DNA of 60,173 nt from Oscillospiraceae bacterium (GTDB taxonomy: Bacteria > Bacillota > Clostridia > Oscillospirales > Oscillospiraceae), in assembly GCA_017432615.1 (NCBI GenBank), contig JAFRIV010000026.1, positions 1 through 60,173 of the forward strand, read 5' to 3'. Positions 39,039 through 45,726 of the stretch are shown in pieces (positions within the stretch are counted from its first letter, which is position 1; every line of letters starts with the position of its first letter). Under the pieces are notes generated by a model, which ran no database searches, was not told the DNA's origin, and worked only from the letters and a program-made list of their open reading frames with translations. The position numbers were made by a program, and so were the translations under genes.

Positions 39039-39066
39039 AAAAAACACGCCGGGCGGCGTGTTTTTT
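39039..39066. terminator. Terminator of the sensor operon
   Basis: Stem CACGCC / GGCGTG extended by A6/T6 on both sides. It follows the last gene of the minus-strand sensor operon and works in both directions. Confidence 0.83.
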
Positions 39067-39122: not shown

Positions 39123-40301
39123 TCACTCCACAAAGATGCCTTCATCCAGAATATAGTGGAAGGAGGGGGAGGAGGAAGTGCTGTTTTCTTTATAGACGGT
39201 GGAAAGGTCTATGGTGTTGGAGGGGTTTTGCGGGTCGGTGCCGGTATATGGCCCCTGAAATACAGGCAAAGACCCCTTGCGGAATGCCGCAATCAGTTCA
39301 TCAATCTTTTCCCGGGACCCCGGGGCAAGCAGTGCCGTATTCGGCTCCAGGAGCTGTACCCAGTCGCTTTCAAAACCGGCAACGCAGTCATTTCCGAATG
39401 CCGTGGCAGACACGTTTTTCTCGATGCGCCTGTTTTCCATAACCGCTTCTACGCTCCCGATTACATAGGGAGTATAATTCACGCGGAGACTGATCAGTGT
39501 GGAATCGGGCGCCACATCCATCATACTGCGGTTATAGCCGACAAAAAAGACGGGTCTGTCCGCTTCCTCACAGGCTATAGCCGGCCCGATCGTATCGGTA
39601 TGATGAGAAAGCACCATGCATCCTTCGTCGATCAGTTCGCGGGCGGTCTGCTTCTCCAAGGCGAAGTTGTTCCAGGCGTGGATATAACGGACTTTCATCG
39701 TCGCCTCGGGTACGACGCTTCGTATCCCAAGGAAAAATGCCGTATAGCCGGAGATGACTTCCGGCGTCTCAAATCCGCCGATGTACCCTACCAGTGCATT
39801 TTCCGGCCTGATGTATCTGTTGTCGATCAGCTGCTGCAGTTTCATCCCGGCGATAACGCCGCTGATATACCTGGCCTGATAGACAGCGCCGTTAAACATA
39901 TGGTAGTTTGACGGGAAAACGGTCCCTTCCGAATGGGGAAACGACACCTGGCAGAAGGTGACATCCGGGTACTCCCCGGCAAGGGAAACAAGCTGTTCAC
40001 TGTAGTTGTTGCAGAAAATGATGCGGCAGCCTTTGTGGATCAGATCCCGCAAAGGTTCCTCTGTTTCTTCGGGAAGAATATTGCTTCGGGTATAGACCTC
40101 TACCCGGTCCGGATATCTCCTCTGGAGGGCATCCCGGGCCAGCATAAAATTATAAGTGTACGGTGTGCTTTCATCGTTTTCAAAAAGAAACCCGACCTTG
40201 ATATTCTCTTCCGATGCCGGCCTGTTCATCACAAAAATGCCGTAATAGGCCGCCAGGACTACCAGACAGGTCAGAAGCGTTGCAGCAACTGTACGTCTCA
40301 T
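39123..40301 (-). CDS. Membrane-anchored BMP/Med-like solute-binding protein
   Basis: The 392-residue protein has an uncleaved-looking N-terminal anchor (RRTVAATLLTCLVVLAAYYGIFVMN) and a periplasmic-binding-protein fold of the basic membrane protein (Bmp/Med/PnrA) type: KVGFLFENDESTPYTYNFMLARDAL, GCRIIFCNNYSEQLVSLAGEYPDVTF, ARYISGVIAGMKLQ, ALVGYIGGFETPEVISGYTAFFLGIRSV and VLSHHTDTIGPA. Relatives bind purine nucleosides. There is no lipobox and no ABC permease or ATPase gene nearby. AAAGGAGGTTGCCGTC precedes the ATG at 40301. It is third in the operon, after the HD-GYP receptor, so a sensory co-receptor role is more likely than transport (inference). Confidence 0.82.
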   Translation of the reverse strand: MRRTVAATLLTCLVVLAAYYGIFVMNRPASEENIKVGFLFENDESTPYTYNFMLARDALQRRYPDRVEVYTRSNILPEETEEPLRDLIHKGCRIIFCNNYSEQLVSLAGEYPDVTFCQVSFPHSEGTVFPSNYHMFNGAVYQARYISGVIAGMKLQQLIDNRYIRPENALVGYIGGFETPEVISGYTAFFLGIRSVVPEATMKVRYIHAWNNFALEKQTARELIDEGCMVLSHHTDTIGPAIACEEADRPVFFVGYNRSMMDVAPDSTLISLRVNYTPYVIGSVEAVMENRRIEKNVSATAFGNDCVAGFESDWVQLLEPNTALLAPGSREKIDELIAAFRKGSLPVFQGPYTGTDPQNPSNTIDLSTVYKENSTSSSPSFHYILDEGIFVE

Positions 40302-40317
40302 GACGGCAACCTCCTTT

Positions 40318-43300
40318 TCACTGCTCATTTTGTTTCTCCGAAGGCACGTTGTATATTGCGTTCAGATCAATATCACCGTTCCGCAGAAGCTTCAGCATGG
40401 CATCGTCCGCCGTGGGATCAAACTGTGTGCCGCGCCCCTTTTCCATCTCGTTGATCACATAGTCAAAATCCATCTGTTTCCGGTAAACACGGTTGGCCGT
40501 CATGGCATCGAAAGCGTCCGCAACGCCGATGATGCGCGCCATTTCCGGGATCTCTTCTCCCTTCAGTCCATCGGGATAGCCTCTCCCGTCCCAGCGTTCA
40601 TGGTGATACTTTGCACCAACGTCCACATCCCGGATCAGCGTCATGTCTTTCAAGATCCTGGCGCCGCTTGTGGTGTGTGTTTTCATCACGGCATACTCTT
40701 CATCCGTAAGACGGGAAGGTTTGTTGAGGATGTTGTCTTTGATCGCAATTTTGCCGATGTCGTGCATGAGAGCGGCATTTTCCAGATTCTTACAGTAAGC
40801 TTCGGACTTTCCGAGTGCTTCGGCAATCATTACAGCGTATTTGGCGACTCTCTTGGAGTGATCGCTGGTACGGACATCTTTGGCATCCACTGTGTTTGCG
40901 ATGGCAATGATGGTCTGTTTGGACATATCTGCCTTTTCCTGCAGCTTGGCATAGCTTCGGTAACCGATGAAGAACAGAATAAACAGGAGCATCATCATGG
41001 CGACCCCGATAAAGTATAAGCGGAAGCCCAGCGTTTCAAAGAATTCCTCATCCTTGATCAGATCAAAAATGCGTTCGGTAACGATGTTCTGGTCACTGTC
41101 AAATACTGCAAGATGAAGCCGATATTCTCCGGCGGGAAGGTTGGTGTATACGATGGAATTGAGATTCGCCTGGGAGCGGGTCGTCCATTCCGCGTCAAAT
41201 CCTTCCAGATAATACCCCACATTCGGGGTCTGTACCGAATAATTGAGGATCTCCGGAAACAGCTCCATACGGGTGATCCCGGTCCCGACTTCAATGCCTT
41301 CATTAGATTCGATCGGAAAACGTATGCCGTCCAGACGTATTGCCGGGATATCGATACGGATGGAAGGCATCGCGGTGGCAAACGCATTGGTGTCAATGGC
41401 AAAGACTCCCGTATCGCAGGGGAGATAGAGGTTGCCGGAATCGTCACACCAGGACCAGGAATTTGCCGTGAGGGAGCTGTTGAGCCCGCGCCTGGCATCC
41501 AGCAGAACGGCCTTGAGTTCCGATGTATCAGAAAGCAGAGCATTGCGGGAAACCACATAGAGCCCGGCACTGCTCATCACAAAAAGGGTATCGATGTCTC
41601 TTATCCACAGATCGTAATTATTGAAGTAGGGAAAGTTGTCCAACCGGCGGATCGTGCCATCTTCCTCCAGATAGCACAGGCCGTTGCTGGTAACCACAAA
41701 TACCCCGTCTGACTGCGGATCGGCTACGGTACGAAGGATCACTTCGGAGCTGAGACCGTCTGAACGGGTGAGTGACTTTGTCACTTCTCCGTTTTCCAGG
41801 ATCGCGATCCCGGCTCCGTCCGTTCCGGCAAGGATCCGGCCGTCAGAAAGTTCGGTCAGGGTCAGGATCACGGTGTTTTTCAGCCCATCAGCGTGGCCGA
41901 GGGTCTTTTGAATGGCACCGTCGGAAATAAAGCTGATACCGGTGTCGCTGGAGGCCAGGATCGTATCGTCGGAGAGCTGCGTGACAACGCGCGCCTTATT
42001 GCCGAAACTGCTATTGATACTGTTGTAAGTGCGCACGGTTCTGTCCGGAAGAACTTCCATCAGGCCCTGGCTGTAGGTGCAGATCCAGAGATGATCCTCC
42101 CTGTCCACCAACAGGCAGCGGATGCGGATGCCTTCCAAAAGCTCGGTCAGATCGTCATTCACTTCTTCCCGGCGCAGGGTATCCACGGCATCCAGGCCTC
42201 CATCAGTCCCAAAATACAGGACATCCTGCCATTTTGCCACGGCATTTACCACTTTGCTCTCCAGACCGACCGTGCTGTAGATATCCCGGAAGGAAGAGGG
42301 GGCGAGCCGCAGCAGCCCGAGGCGGGAAGAGGCAAACCAGAGATTTCCCTGAAAATCTACCAGCATGTTGTCGATAGAGTTATTGAAATCATTGGTGTTG
42401 ATCCGGTGATAGATGCCGTCGCGGTTTAAATAGGCGACTCCGTTGTCTGCGGAGAGAAACAATTCCCCGTTTCCCGGGAAATACAGATCGTTGATGCTGG
42501 TGAGACCTTCACAGCTCTGCTCATATTGGAGATCAAAAATATCATTGGATACATCAAAAAAGTAGAGATGGTTGCCCGTCGTGCCGACGATCAGAAGGCC
42601 TTCCCGGTCAAAGGCACAGGAGTGATAGTATTCTTCCGTCTCCGGAAGACGGAGGGAACAGAGCACTTCGCCGGCCTGCAGCAGAAAGAGGCGTCCGTCA
42701 GAAGTGATCCCGGCCACTTTTCCGGTTTCATCAGCAGAAAGACAGTCGGTATAATTCATCTCGGACAGGGTGCTGATCTGTTTCAAACCGCCGCTGAGAG
42801 ACAGCACCTGCAGGTTGCCCGTGGTGCCGATATAATAGTACCCATCGGAACTTTGGATGATCGAGCGGACAGAATTGGAAGGAAGGCCATGCTCCTGGTC
42901 CAATACACTTACAACTTTCTCATGGATCGAAATGGCAAGCCCGCTGTCGTTGGTGCCGATCCACAATCTCCCTTCCGGGTCAACATACAGGCAGTTGACG
43001 TTGCGCACGGAATCCATGGAGTCCATCCACTGAAAATCCCTGCCGTTATAGCGGTAAAGCCCGGCATAAGTGCCGATCCACAGGACGCCGTCGTTCGTCA
43101 TGGCGATGTCGTTTGCTTCTCCGCAGGGCAGCCCGTTCGTGCTGTTATAAGTGGTCTGCACATAATCACTGTAAACAGAAGAGGGGGTTTCGTTCTCAGC
43201 CTGTGCGCAGATGCCGAAAAGACCGGACAGAAGCCCTACAGCGGTAAAGAGCACCAGCAGATGGATGCCTTTTCCCGAGGGGTTTCCCGTGTGATGATGC

Positions 43301-43851
43301 TGCAAAGTCCATTCTTCCCTGTGCACAAAGCGGAAAAGAATATATACGAGAAAAATGGTAAGTACTTTGTCCAGAAATTCAAGATAAAGCTGCCCGATGA
43401 TAGCACAAACGACCAGGGGAGTATTGAACTGTCGGAGGTAATGGATGACGCTGTCTCCAAAGAGATTGCCTGTATAGCCGCCTCTCAGGATCATATTTAA
43501 CGGAACGGAAACGACAACACACGCCAGTGTGACCATCAGAGCGACGGTCAGACATCCCTGCAGCTTATCCAGGTATTTTTTTCGGAATGTGATTCCGACG
43601 ATGAGAGCCATCATAACACTGGTCAGGGCATACAGCCAGGTAAGCGGTTCGCTGCCCGCCGTCAGAATATTACTGGTGACCCCGACGAGAATACCGCAGA
43701 CAGGGCCGAGAGTACACGCGCAAAGAATGGTTCCGAAAGAATCCAGCCAGAAGGGAAGATCAAAAGCCATACAAAATGCGTTCCCGCCATAATTCAGGGC
43801 TATGCATAATATGGCAAACAGGCAGACCCAGATCGGTTTCCAGTGCCTCAA
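40318..43851 (-). CDS. Membrane beta-propeller receptor with HD-GYP c-di-GMP phosphodiesterase domain
   Basis: The 1,177-residue receptor has five parts. (1) N-terminal membrane region, about 1-185, with about six helices resembling ECF-transporter S components (NYGGNAFCMAFDLPFWLDSFGTILCACTLGP). (2) After a further helix, a two-component-regulator propeller, about 225-830, with a dozen Reg_prop repeats (DGVLWIGTYAGLYRY, EGRLWIGTNDSGLAI). (3) A Y_Y_Y domain, about 850-920. (4) A membrane helix near 950. (5) An HD-GYP domain with MHDIGKIAI, HHERWDGRGYP and ARIIGVADAFDAMT, all intact, so c-di-GMP hydrolysis is expected. I chose the TTG at 43851, which has AGGAGG upstream and avoids a 53-base overlap from the ATG at 43917. 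It is flanked by two solute-binding proteins. Confidence 0.88.
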   Translation of the reverse strand: MRHWKPIWVCLFAILCIALNYGGNAFCMAFDLPFWLDSFGTILCACTLGPVCGILVGVTSNILTAGSEPLTWLYALTSVMMALIVGITFRKKYLDKLQGCLTVALMVTLACVVVSVPLNMILRGGYTGNLFGDSVIHYLRQFNTPLVVCAIIGQLYLEFLDKVLTIFLVYILFRFVHREEWTLQHHHTGNPSGKGIHLLVLFTAVGLLSGLFGICAQAENETPSSVYSDYVQTTYNSTNGLPCGEANDIAMTNDGVLWIGTYAGLYRYNGRDFQWMDSMDSVRNVNCLYVDPEGRLWIGTNDSGLAISIHEKVVSVLDQEHGLPSNSVRSIIQSSDGYYYIGTTGNLQVLSLSGGLKQISTLSEMNYTDCLSADETGKVAGITSDGRLFLLQAGEVLCSLRLPETEEYYHSCAFDREGLLIVGTTGNHLYFFDVSNDIFDLQYEQSCEGLTSINDLYFPGNGELFLSADNGVAYLNRDGIYHRINTNDFNNSIDNMLVDFQGNLWFASSRLGLLRLAPSSFRDIYSTVGLESKVVNAVAKWQDVLYFGTDGGLDAVDTLRREEVNDDLTELLEGIRIRCLLVDREDHLWICTYSQGLMEVLPDRTVRTYNSINSSFGNKARVVTQLSDDTILASSDTGISFISDGAIQKTLGHADGLKNTVILTLTELSDGRILAGTDGAGIAILENGEVTKSLTRSDGLSSEVILRTVADPQSDGVFVVTSNGLCYLEEDGTIRRLDNFPYFNNYDLWIRDIDTLFVMSSAGLYVVSRNALLSDTSELKAVLLDARRGLNSSLTANSWSWCDDSGNLYLPCDTGVFAIDTNAFATAMPSIRIDIPAIRLDGIRFPIESNEGIEVGTGITRMELFPEILNYSVQTPNVGYYLEGFDAEWTTRSQANLNSIVYTNLPAGEYRLHLAVFDSDQNIVTERIFDLIKDEEFFETLGFRLYFIGVAMMMLLFILFFIGYRSYAKLQEKADMSKQTIIAIANTVDAKDVRTSDHSKRVAKYAVMIAEALGKSEAYCKNLENAALMHDIGKIAIKDNILNKPSRLTDEEYAVMKTHTTSGARILKDMTLIRDVDVGAKYHHERWDGRGYPDGLKGEEIPEMARIIGVADAFDAMTANRVYRKQMDFDYVINEMEKGRGTQFDPTADDAMLKLLRNGDIDLNAIYNVPSEKQNEQ

Positions 43852-43864
43852 ATGACTCACCTCC

Positions 43865-44794
43865 TCAGTAGCCGAGTGTTTCAGCCAGCTTTTCGTATTC
43901 GAAAAACCAGCGCTCATATTCTCCGCTGTCCAGCACTTCGTTGATCACCCCGTTGACAAAAGCAATCAGCTCGGTCTCGCCCTTTCGTGCGGCAATTCTG
44001 TCGCCGTCATATTGCTCTTCCATCACAAATACAACATTCGGCACCAGCATCAGCCCGCACTTCGGATTATTATCCAGATAGATCTGAGCAGACATCTGAT
44101 CGACACAGCCGACGTCCACTTCACGTGCAGAAAGAGCTTCGTAGATATCCTGCACCTGTAAAACTCTGCGAAATTCACGGTAGTTGAATACGCGCTCTGC
44201 AAGCAGGGATTCCTGCAGAGAACCTCGCTGAGCGGCAAGGGCTTTGTCTTTCAGATCGGTAAGGGACCGGATACGATTCCGGTTCTCCTTGCGAATGATC
44301 AGCGTGCTGCCGGCGGATTCTCCGGAATAGTGATATGCCTTTGAAAATTCCGCTTTGGCTGCCCGCCCCGTCGTAAAGGTGAGAGCCGAGATGGCAAGAT
44401 CACAGGTGTTCTCCGCAACAGAGGAAAGCACCTGGGTAAAGTCCATCGGCACGATCTCCAGTTCCACCCCCATGCGTTCGGCAATCAGGCGGGCAAGTTC
44501 CATATCAGCCCCCACATATTGCGCCTGACCGGAGAGCGAAGGATCGATAAATTCCTGCGGGACAAAATAGGGCTCCGTGGCTACACGAAGCAGACCTTTT
44601 TCCCGGATGTAGCCCAGACGCCCGCCGGCATCTTCCGGAATGCCGGCGGTAATATCCATGGCGTCTTCGACAAATCCCCATTCGTTTTCATAAAAAACGG
44701 TTTCGTCGGCAAACACGAAAGAAGGGAAAAGGGCACAGAACAGCAGCACGGCAAGGAGACACAGCAAAACAGGTACTTTTACAGATTTCATCAT
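43865..44794 (-). CDS. Secreted family 3 solute-binding protein (amino-acid-binding type)
   Basis: The 309-residue protein has an SPase I signal (MMKSVKVPVLLCLLAVLLF...FVFA-DE, no lipobox) and an SBP_bac_3 domain: GLLRVATEPYFVPQEF, GADMELARLIAERMGVELEIVPMDFTQVL, CDLAISALTFTTGRAAKAEFSKAYHYS and LKDKALAAQRGSLQESL. Family members bind polar amino acids or act as periplasmic input domains of sensor kinases. About 30 residues rich in Glu (ENEWGFVEDAMDI) precede the domain. It is first in the operon with a strong promoter and no transporter genes. It is probably a soluble ligand-capturing partner of the HD-GYP receptor (inference). Confidence 0.87.
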   Translation of the reverse strand: MMKSVKVPVLLCLLAVLLFCALFPSFVFADETVFYENEWGFVEDAMDITAGIPEDAGGRLGYIREKGLLRVATEPYFVPQEFIDPSLSGQAQYVGADMELARLIAERMGVELEIVPMDFTQVLSSVAENTCDLAISALTFTTGRAAKAEFSKAYHYSGESAGSTLIIRKENRNRIRSLTDLKDKALAAQRGSLQESLLAERVFNYREFRRVLQVQDIYEALSAREVDVGCVDQMSAQIYLDNNPKCGLMLVPNVVFVMEEQYDGDRIAARKGETELIAFVNGVINEVLDSGEYERWFFEYEKLAETLGY

Positions 44795-44859: not shown

Positions 44860-44888
44860 ATTATATCAATCAGGAAAAAATCTTTCAA
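44860..44888 (-). promoter_or_regulatory. Promoter of the sensor operon
   Basis: Minus-strand TTGAAA, 17-bp spacer, perfect TATAAT, about 65 bases before the first ATG. Confidence 0.85.
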
Positions 44889-45075: not shown

Positions 45076-45726
45076 ATGAAAAAGATCCTTTCCATATTGC
45101 TGGTAAGCGCATTGCTGCTGGCAATGTCTGTGTTCTCTTTTGCAGAAGAAACCGAAGTCGAGTATTCTTTTGAATTTCTTTCCGACACGGAGGCGGCTGT
45201 TTCGTCCTTCCTGGGGTGTGTGGAGTCCATCCATCTTCCCTCCAACGCGGGACACCGGTATGTCACGGCAGTCGGGGACGGCGCTTTTGAATTCGCTGAC
45301 ACGCTGGTTTACGTGAAGGTATCCAGCTATGTGAAGCAGATCGGGGATTATGCCTTTCACGGATGCACGTTCCTCCAGAAGATCGACCTCCCCCAGTCTG
45401 TTGAGACGGTAGGGAAGTATGCCTTCCAGAGCTGCACCAATCTGAAGGGCATTACGCTCCCGGAGGGGATCACTTCTCTGGAAGAGGGCACTTTCATGTT
45501 CTGCCCGGATCTTTCCGAGGTGAAGCTGCCTTCTACGCTGCAGAGCATCGGGGAGAATGCATTCGTGTTCTGCCTGGCACTGAAAGAGCTTTCCATTCCC
45601 GCATCGGTCACGGCGATTGCACCCGAAGCATTTGTTGACTGCCCCGACCTGACGCTCACCGTGGCGGATGGTTCCTACGCGATGGAATATGCCGAGGAAA
45701 ACGGCATTCCGTTTGTTGTTGCCTGA
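45076..45726 (+). CDS. Secreted BspA-type leucine-rich-repeat protein
   Basis: The 216-residue exported protein has a signal peptide (KKILSILLVSALLLAMSVFSFA-EE) and about five LRR_5 (BspA/TpLRR) repeats of about 23 residues: VGDGAFEFADTLVYVKVSSYVKQ, IGDYAFHGCTFLQKIDLPQSVET, VGKYAFQSCTNLKGITLPEGITS, LEEGTFMFCPDLSEVKLPSTLQS and IGENAFVFCLALKELSIPASVTA. It ends YAMEYAEENGIPFVVA, the usual cap of this family. There is no wall anchor, so it is probably released. Such proteins mediate adhesion or protein-protein contact. AGGAGGTCGTT precedes the ATG; a strong terminator follows. Confidence 0.9.
   Translation: MKKILSILLVSALLLAMSVFSFAEETEVEYSFEFLSDTEAAVSSFLGCVESIHLPSNAGHRYVTAVGDGAFEFADTLVYVKVSSYVKQIGDYAFHGCTFLQKIDLPQSVETVGKYAFQSCTNLKGITLPEGITSLEEGTFMFCPDLSEVKLPSTLQSIGENAFVFCLALKELSIPASVTAIAPEAFVDCPDLTLTVADGSYAMEYAEENGIPFVVA

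Follow-up and report, generated by a model that had tools for sequence, protein, structure and literature searches.

Three neighbouring genes of an Oscillospiraceae bacterium raise the question of what a large membrane receptor senses when it is encoded between two solute-binding proteins, in a unit without a gene for an ATP-binding cassette (ABC) permease or ATPase. The genes lie at 39123-44794 on the minus strand of the window, by which we mean the whole analysed stretch of 60,173 nucleotides (JAFRIV010000026.1; contig C16 of the genome here called G000). According to the list of open reading frames (ORFs) they encode an SBP_bac_3 protein, the receptor and a Bmp protein. An earlier interpretation of these letters, the sequence-only reading, had described a dedicated sensory unit, and the absence of ABC permease and ATPase genes bears this out. 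Our answer, to which we give a probability of about 0.6, is that the unit is a receptor for extracellular purine nucleosides or nucleobases, in which ligand binding leads to the breakdown of a cyclic dinucleotide, most likely cyclic di-GMP (c-di-GMP). The genes and receptor domains are arranged as follows.

43865..44794 (-): SBP_bac_3 binding protein of the amino-acid type, 309 aa; signal for secretion (by eye), no lipobox; PF00497, 3.9e-25; optional member
40318..43851 (-): receptor, 1,177 aa from the TTG at 43851; a longer ORF starts at 43917
43294..43851 (-): energy-coupling factor (ECF) S-component domain, receptor residues 1-186, predicted from a model (pLDDT 86.9), PDB fold matches and a tree
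43207..43269 (-): seventh membrane helix, residues 195-215, a helix in the model at low confidence
41377..43161 (-): propeller region, residues 231-825, taken as extracellular; Reg_prop, 2.8e-26; PDB 3v9f, 3ott, 4a2m
41053..41358 (-): Y_Y_Y domain, residues 832-933; PF07495, 2.1e-9; strands in the model
40972..41031 (-): eighth membrane helix, the start of a long helix at 941-990 in the model; relatives have a hydrophobic stretch at the same place
40411..40899 (-): predicted HD-GYP phosphodiesterase domain, residues 985-1147; PF13487 (HD_5), 6.4e-39; PDB 5z7c, 4mcw
39123..40301 (-): binding protein of the Bmp type, without a lipobox, hydrophobic anchor at the N-terminus; PF02608, 1.4e-19

The ORFs themselves, all on the minus strand, span 43865-44794 (SBP_bac_3), 40318-43917 (receptor) and 39123-40328 (Bmp). 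A strong AGGAGG-type ribosome site lies just ahead of the likely start of the receptor (TTG at 43851) and of Bmp (ATG at 40301). Given these starts, the gaps between the three co-directional genes are 13 and 16 bases when read directly from the sequence, as had been claimed. The receptor length of 1,177 residues also stands, since in the relatives the position aligned with the TTG, or one next to it, is a start codon too.

The receptor-Bmp pair and the SBP_bac_3 gene

A scan of named genomes yielded 421 stretches that encode relatives of the receptor (one receptor may count twice), and the best 80, with 52 to 57 % identity, were kept; all counts out of 80 refer to these. The Bmp gene lies directly after the receptor in 77 of the 80 loci, and in 70 of 70 where there is room of at least 1,300 bases. 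In the three loci without Bmp (L113, L131 and L138) merely 2 to 147 bases of the contig remain. The receptor stop and Bmp start codons overlap by 4 bases in 52 of the 77 pairs. SBP_bac_3, on the other hand, is found upstream of the receptor in only 26 of the 80 loci (25 of the 76 whose contig extends 1,000 bases or more on that side). No other neighbour family recurs at a fixed place in the 80 loci, shadow reading frames aside, and ten genes scanned close behind Bmp belong to mixed families. The receptor and Bmp therefore form the unit, and SBP_bac_3 is an addition to it. Among the genes behind Bmp are a Cthe_2159 carbohydrate-binding gene in L123 and, in two related loci, CotH-kinase-like genes that follow Bmp directly (L112, 5005-6225; L116, 12314-13618).

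The neighbourhood search proposed by the sequence-only reading was also carried out closer to the window. Among the 37 genomes shown in the same-genus sample, own genome included, a full-length receptor is present in two, G000 and G015, and G015 carries all three genes in the same order as the window. In the order sample (394 genomes), receptor and Bmp occur besides the window in G353, G335 and G413. No SBP_bac_3 homologue was found in the fetched stretch of G353 or G335, and the Bmp of G335 is truncated. In G413 (L093, 1-3342) the contig begins within the receptor, so that its upstream side is unseen, and the receptor contains an in-frame stop, which reflects either a decayed copy or an assembly error. 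In the class sample (391 genomes), full-length receptors were found besides the window in G563 and G515; Bmp lies behind both, and the fetched stretch of neither contains SBP_bac_3. The best 80 of the 421 are mostly labelled Lachnospiraceae or unplaced Clostridia, many have rumen or gut in their titles, and a few are isolates. The isolates with the system include Butyrivibrio sp. FCS014 and NC2007, which makes the system experimentally testable.

On a quick tree of 85 receptors the presence of SBP_bac_3 requires 3 changes, compared to a mean of 22.9 after shuffling; three rows were omitted from this count, and two with 741 and 989 bases upstream were scored as lacking the gene. This distribution would be explained if the gene was gained at the base of the main clade and lost in a 53-row clade mostly labelled Lachnospiraceae, on a tree without bootstrap in which the window is a long branch. 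Where the protein is present, its ligand residues are conserved: R144 and D227 in 25 of 25 aligned sequences, and D232 in 22 of 25. This Arg/Asp pair is presumably the one that holds the amino-acid backbone in SBP_bac_3 proteins. The sequence-only reading had assumed that an amino-acid-like and a nucleoside-like ligand together gate the receptor. Both types of binding protein are indeed present in the window, and the domain matches and pocket residues agree with the assigned types. As a general logic, two equal ligands are not supported, because SBP_bac_3 is missing from most relatives' loci and its presence needs only these three changes on the tree.

To place the Bmp gene, we compared it with Bmp genes of the order sample that have no receptor next to them, taking the 27 with the best scores. 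All 27 are beside a Bmp-type ABC ATPase, whereas 1 of the 77 receptor-linked Bmp genes (L150) has a match to a Bmp-type ATPase or permease less than 1.5 kb away, and a weak one (4e-13); at least 1 kb of sequence behind Bmp is available in 66 of these 77 loci. A layout in which the binding proteins stand with ABC genes and the receptor stands alone was sought in the receptor loci and not found. This control and the 77 adjacent pairs rule out chance adjacency. Elsewhere in the window genome, another Bmp gene is accompanied by an ABC ATPase and two BPD_transp_2 permeases. The receptor-linked Bmp would thus have moved from service in an ABC importer to service in a receptor.

The solved structures nearest to Bmp are 3s99, in which adenine was modelled, and AtzT (6pi5), which has guanine bound (PMC6834077; here and below, statements on cited papers refer to the parts of their texts that were searched). 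By alignment, the AtzT contacts Tyr45, Glu165 and Trp194 correspond to Y57, E190 and W219 of Bmp, and Asn218 and Asn220 to H243 and D245, as in 3s99. In 82 receptor-linked Bmp proteins, Y57 is retained in 78 (F in 2 more), E190 in 78, W219 in 77, H243 in 75 and D245 in 73, and the position of AtzT Ser97 is G in 63, N in 10, S in 5 and T in 4. The same five pocket residues are found in the Bmp that the window genome encodes with its ABC transporter, so the pocket alone does not distinguish the receptor Bmp. From these residues we infer that the ligand is of the purine type, which covers a nucleoside or a free base. A regular-expression test found no lipobox in Bmp or SBP_bac_3 of the window, as the sequence-only reading had noted, and a lipobox-like tetrapeptide within the first 45 residues occurs in 8 of 83 receptor-linked Bmp proteins.

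The membrane part of the receptor

The AlphaFold model of the membrane part contains six helices (6-30, 39-48, 50-65, 69-90, 97-123 and 146-186) and a short one at 130-140, with pLDDT mostly >90, and a less certain further helix at 195-215. In a fold search against the PDB, ranks 1-8 were RibU, ThiT and S-component-length chains of folate ECF complexes (probability 0.96-1.00, E-values 0.016 to 0.47). As modelled, the membrane part thus has the ECF S-component fold. The ECF-S-like part had been named in the sequence-only reading, and this assignment is strengthened; its alternative, a small-molecule channel, was rejected on the basis of this fold. By sequence the domain is less easily recognised. 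The Pfam match for the ECF part is 8.9e-4, under cut-off; NCBIfam ECF_S_CD3073 gives 7.2e-22 and 77.9 bits, under its 180-bit cut-off; and no sequence relatives of the S domain were found in the PDB. The 5TMR-LYT model (PF07694) scores the receptor at 16.2 bits, under the cut-off of 24.6, and a split S protein of G395 at 25.5, over it.

The two best-scoring free-standing S relatives of the class search, in G592 and G664, both lie in ECF operons with a uridine/purine-phosphorylase-like gene, in which EcfT and EcfA were assigned by size, helices and ABC motifs. We read 40 further free-standing S loci, picked from the best matches of the S-gene searches; 18 of them have an Ecf module, which with G592 and G664 makes 20 such loci (one, L250, stops at the contig end). 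At least 12 of the 20 contain a nucleoside enzyme, namely 9 a phosphorylase and 3 an inosine-uridine nucleoside hydrolase; this is a lower bound because the hydrolase was scanned in chosen neighbours only. No nucleoside phosphorylase was found in the 22 S loci without an Ecf module. These neighbours also lead to a prediction beyond the receptor, namely that a branch of CD3073-like ECF S components has nucleosides as substrate. The dedicated ECF operons of L245-L247 have, in place of nucleoside enzymes, a gene of the NADH:flavin oxidoreductase type (scanned only in L245), which suggests another substrate for their S components. In L236-L238 and L240-L243 each free-standing CD3073-type S gene adjoins a gene for a protein of 164-179 aa; the one scanned, in L237 (4525-5016), has no Pfam match.

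In a tree of S domains (70 rows, L256 having been dropped by the length filter), the 19 receptor rows group at 95/90. The receptors, two split S genes and six Ecf-linked S components group at 100/99, and the long-branch L266 also falls there. Four of these six transporter S components (L197, L198, L253 and L255) are beside a phosphorylase. The six have 83 conserved columns, and at 36 of these the same residue is present in at least 80 % of the receptors. At 14 of the 36 the residue is rare (<30 %) in 28 other S components: W35, S38, L43, S71, Y74, T77, S78, S115, N119, N129, W131, G132, P145 and T165. By our own reading of helix order and the positive-inside rule, made without coordinates, most of the 14 would be located towards the outside, which is where substrate binds in S components.

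Other positions and neighbours were compared as well. None of the 80 receptors has P14 or P177, residues found in the related S components of transporters, and G18 is present in 8. The AXXXA motif in helix 1 was found in 10 of the 80, but the S components used for comparison also have it in only 1 of 6 and 9 of 28, so the motif does not prove a loss of Ecf coupling. No Ecf module accompanies the pair: an EcfT match was obtained in 1 of the 80 loci, about 7 kb away, and matches to the EcfA query in the fetched stretch of 16 of the 80 are, by score, mostly general ABC ATPases.

S domains are also found near propellers in other forms. In G395 and G353 the S domain is encoded by a gene of its own ahead of a propeller hybrid kinase gene. 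Four f52 genomes (G797, G764, G455 and G730) have an S-HD-GYP protein next to such a kinase, and in a fifth, G645, the protein one gene away from such a kinase has an S domain and an ATPase-like motif. The S-HD-GYP and S-ATPase fusions were ruled out as close kin of the receptor, the eight in the tree being a separate clade, so the link between S domain and propeller arose more than once or was kept in several forms. In L188, L190, L192 and L193, genes for S-domain-HD-GYP proteins of 711-729 aa are neighbours of genes for propeller hybrid kinases (about 1,400 aa), and a further HD-GYP-type protein is encoded close by.

Output, mechanism and competing explanations

The model of the full receptor has a pLDDT of 80.3 and a pTM of 0.51. 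The solved structures closest to the propeller region are the sensor domains of hybrid two-component systems (HTCS) 3v9f, 3ott and 4a2m. What the sequence-only reading saw as about a dozen Reg_prop repeats is better described as an HTCS-type propeller region. The receptor has no Pfam match for a histidine kinase or receiver output and ends in HD-GYP instead. The claim that the HD-GYP domain is intact was upheld. The HD, HHExxDGxGYP and metal-site residues are present, also in the alignment to 4mcw, and H998, HD1030-1031, H1059, HH1083-1084 and D1112 are invariant in 42 sequences; we assume that these conserved residues have metal roles. The HD-GYP motif is found in 79 of the 80 receptors, the exception, L131, being truncated by the contig end. 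Judged from sequence, the substrate is most likely c-di-GMP, because the own genome has 9 GGDEF matches over cut-off and because Bmp shares a 4-base overlap with a GGDEF gene in L136; 3'3'-cyclic GMP-AMP (3'3'-cGAMP) is a possible alternative. A c-di-GMP-I riboswitch was not found in the own genome, and control genomes gave no match either, so this result carries no weight.

An HD-GYP output on a propeller protein, which had been called unusual, is not, as we read 13 loci in these bacteria that encode a propeller with HD-GYP and without the S domain. In G486 (L201, 5790-11417) four genes lie in a row, for an SBP_bac_3 protein, a propeller-HD-GYP receptor lacking the S domain, a membrane protein of 224 residues and, judged by motif, an ABC-ATPase-like protein, which looks like a propeller receptor inside an apparent amino-acid ABC operon. 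A further conserved pair, in the own genome (L098, contig C26, 10662-15570) and in G028 (L104, 1567-6536), consists of a propeller protein that has several membrane helices in its C-terminal part and a second protein, of 625-652 aa, with about seven or eight.

In the purine-receptor reading, Bmp would have been recruited from a nucleoside-type ABC importer to serve the receptor, and an uncleaved N-terminal helix would hold it on the outer face of the membrane. Receptor residues 1-186 would be an S component of the nucleoside-ECF kind, wired to the seventh helix, the propeller and Y_Y_Y domain outside, the eighth helix and the HD-GYP domain inside. Loaded Bmp may dock on the propeller or pass its ligand to the S domain, and either event would move the stalk of Y_Y_Y, helix and HD-GYP and so set the phosphodiesterase activity. 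Ligand outside would in this way lower the messenger inside, and the secreted SBP_bac_3, where present, would provide an extra amino-acid input. We tentatively put forward a more specific form, which we would not call probable: parts of two nucleoside uptake systems, the ECF S subunit and the Bmp of an ABC importer, would have been fused or coupled into one receptor, and Bmp would hand its ligand to the S domain with no uptake, switching HD-GYP.

Several findings weigh against a purine receptor. In Bmp, the AtzT residues Ser97, Asn218 and Asn220 are replaced. L257 and L258, among the six closest transporter S components, have no phosphorylase in the stretch read, and the window receptor has F at site 131, where all 80 relatives have W. 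Purine genes do not recur beside the pair: homologues of adenosine deaminase and phosphorylase, the two families searched, were found in 0 of the 80 loci. A single case that speaks for the reading is G563, where an adenosine-deaminase-like gene (335 bits, under the model's cut-off of 510) starts at the Bmp stop. The closest solved HD-GYP structure, 5z7c, is a 3'3'-cGAMP enzyme. Furthermore, HTCS-type propellers bind glycans in Bacteroides (BT4663), so the receptor propeller may have a ligand of its own.

The last point leads to an explanation that we consider unlikely, in which the propeller senses a plant glycan or another large ligand as in HTCS, and Bmp and the S domain have structural or tuning roles. 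The resemblance of the outside part to HTCS sensor domains would fit this, as would the many hosts that are rumen bacteria and the Cthe_2159 and CotH-like genes behind Bmp. However, the pair has no constant neighbour family in any set position, the S domain retains the sites common to nucleoside-linked S components, and the five Bmp pocket residues, each retained in 73 to 78 of 82 proteins, would be needless in a purely structural part. The full three-gene layout in the window and G015 could instead mean that amino acid via SBP_bac_3 and nucleoside via Bmp are both required. Such a gate is rather improbable: most relatives lack SBP_bac_3 at the locus, the only place searched, the gene's distribution takes few changes on the tree, and the receptor and its HD-GYP motif are intact where it is missing. 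In its favour are the 26 loci that do carry SBP_bac_3, the retained ligand residues of that protein, and G486, where SBP_bac_3 precedes another propeller-HD-GYP receptor, though with the membrane protein and ABC-ATPase-like gene behind it.

We regard it as very unlikely that the receptor still imports, alone or with a shared EcfT-EcfA module, a ligand passed from Bmp to the S domain, while HD-GYP reports the flux. The S domain does group with transporter S components and keeps the sites that they share, and the Bmp genes without a receptor are found with transporters in every case read. Yet the unit has no Ecf module, the single EcfT match is distant, and P14 and P177 are absent from all 80 receptors and G18 from most.

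As for expression, the sequence-only reading had placed a promoter before the first gene and a strong terminator after the last. Sites of both kinds are present, as consensus matches only:

44860..44888 (-): TTGAAA-17-TATAAT, promoter-like, a TG just ahead of the -10; match to consensus 11/12, consensus match only
39039..39066 (-): terminator-like hairpin of 12 pairs with a T run; consensus match only

A divergent gene at 45076-45726 (+) of the window encodes BspA-type leucine-rich repeats (LRR_5, 1.8e-34).

Known systems and significance

The closest precedent in logic is NspS-MbaA of Vibrio cholerae, in which a periplasmic binding protein sets the c-di-GMP turnover of a receptor according to ligand (PMC8967002). 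As there, the binding protein of our pair is tied to one receptor and not to a transporter of its own (77/80; ABC match 1/77). Unlike the receptor here with its HD-GYP domain, MbaA has GGDEF and EAL domains, and the ligands are polyamines. To our knowledge, MbaA has neither a propeller nor an S-component domain, and NspS is not a Bmp protein. The outside propeller with Y_Y_Y is shared with the HTCS sensors BT4663, BT3049 and BT4673 (structures 4a2m, 3v9f and 3ott), whose chain carries a histidine kinase in place of HD-GYP; we know of no HTCS sensor with an S-component domain or a binding-protein partner.

An S-component-fold membrane domain serves as a sensor in 5TMR/LytS-type receptors, some of which have c-di-GMP enzymes (PMC11109136). 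That 2024 paper calls the origin of the shared fold elusive and has no conclusive trees (PMC11109136), whereas the receptor domain described here is placed by its sequence among the S components of transporters. In addition, the extra N-terminal helix H0 of the 5TMR/LytS receptors (PMC11109136) is not seen in our model. The searched text of that paper does not mention propeller, nucleoside, solute-binding or HD-GYP.

In Gram-positive bacteria, binding proteins act as co-receptors in CuaD-CuaS (PMC10384115) and in XylFII-LytS and GlnH-GlnX (PMC9769921). In these, as here, a binding protein feeds a signalling receptor, but their outputs are kinases or PknG and their ligands sugars or acidic amino acids. 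Bmp resembles AtzT in the conserved stacking Tyr and Trp and the pocket Glu, with His and Asp as in 3s99, and differs from it in having a hydrophobic anchor and a tie to a receptor, while AtzT is thought to serve uptake (PMC6834077). Purines are known to set c-di-GMP via a membrane receptor in dCache_1PU sensors with a diguanylate cyclase output (PMC11245519). There the purine binds the dCache domain directly, and binding proteins are unmentioned in the text searched (PMC11245519). The autoinducer-2 (AI-2) receptors of PMC9540692 have, from the text searched, no bearing on this system.

Among the matches listed from the open-licence literature we found neither a receptor of S component, propeller and HD-GYP with a Bmp partner, nor a report of kinship between a receptor domain and nucleoside-type S components. 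Because binding-protein-gated c-di-GMP receptors and S-fold receptors are already known, we regard the system as a variation on these.

Taken together, the shared gene set suggests that many rumen bacteria sense nucleosides or nucleobases outside the cell and lower an internal messenger in response. If this is true, it would provide a signal class for a large group of c-di-GMP enzymes in rumen Clostridia. It would also be a clear and traceable case of a transporter subunit turned receptor, because the S domain, if the parts of the two uptake systems were indeed joined, would no longer drive uptake but switch an HD-GYP enzyme.

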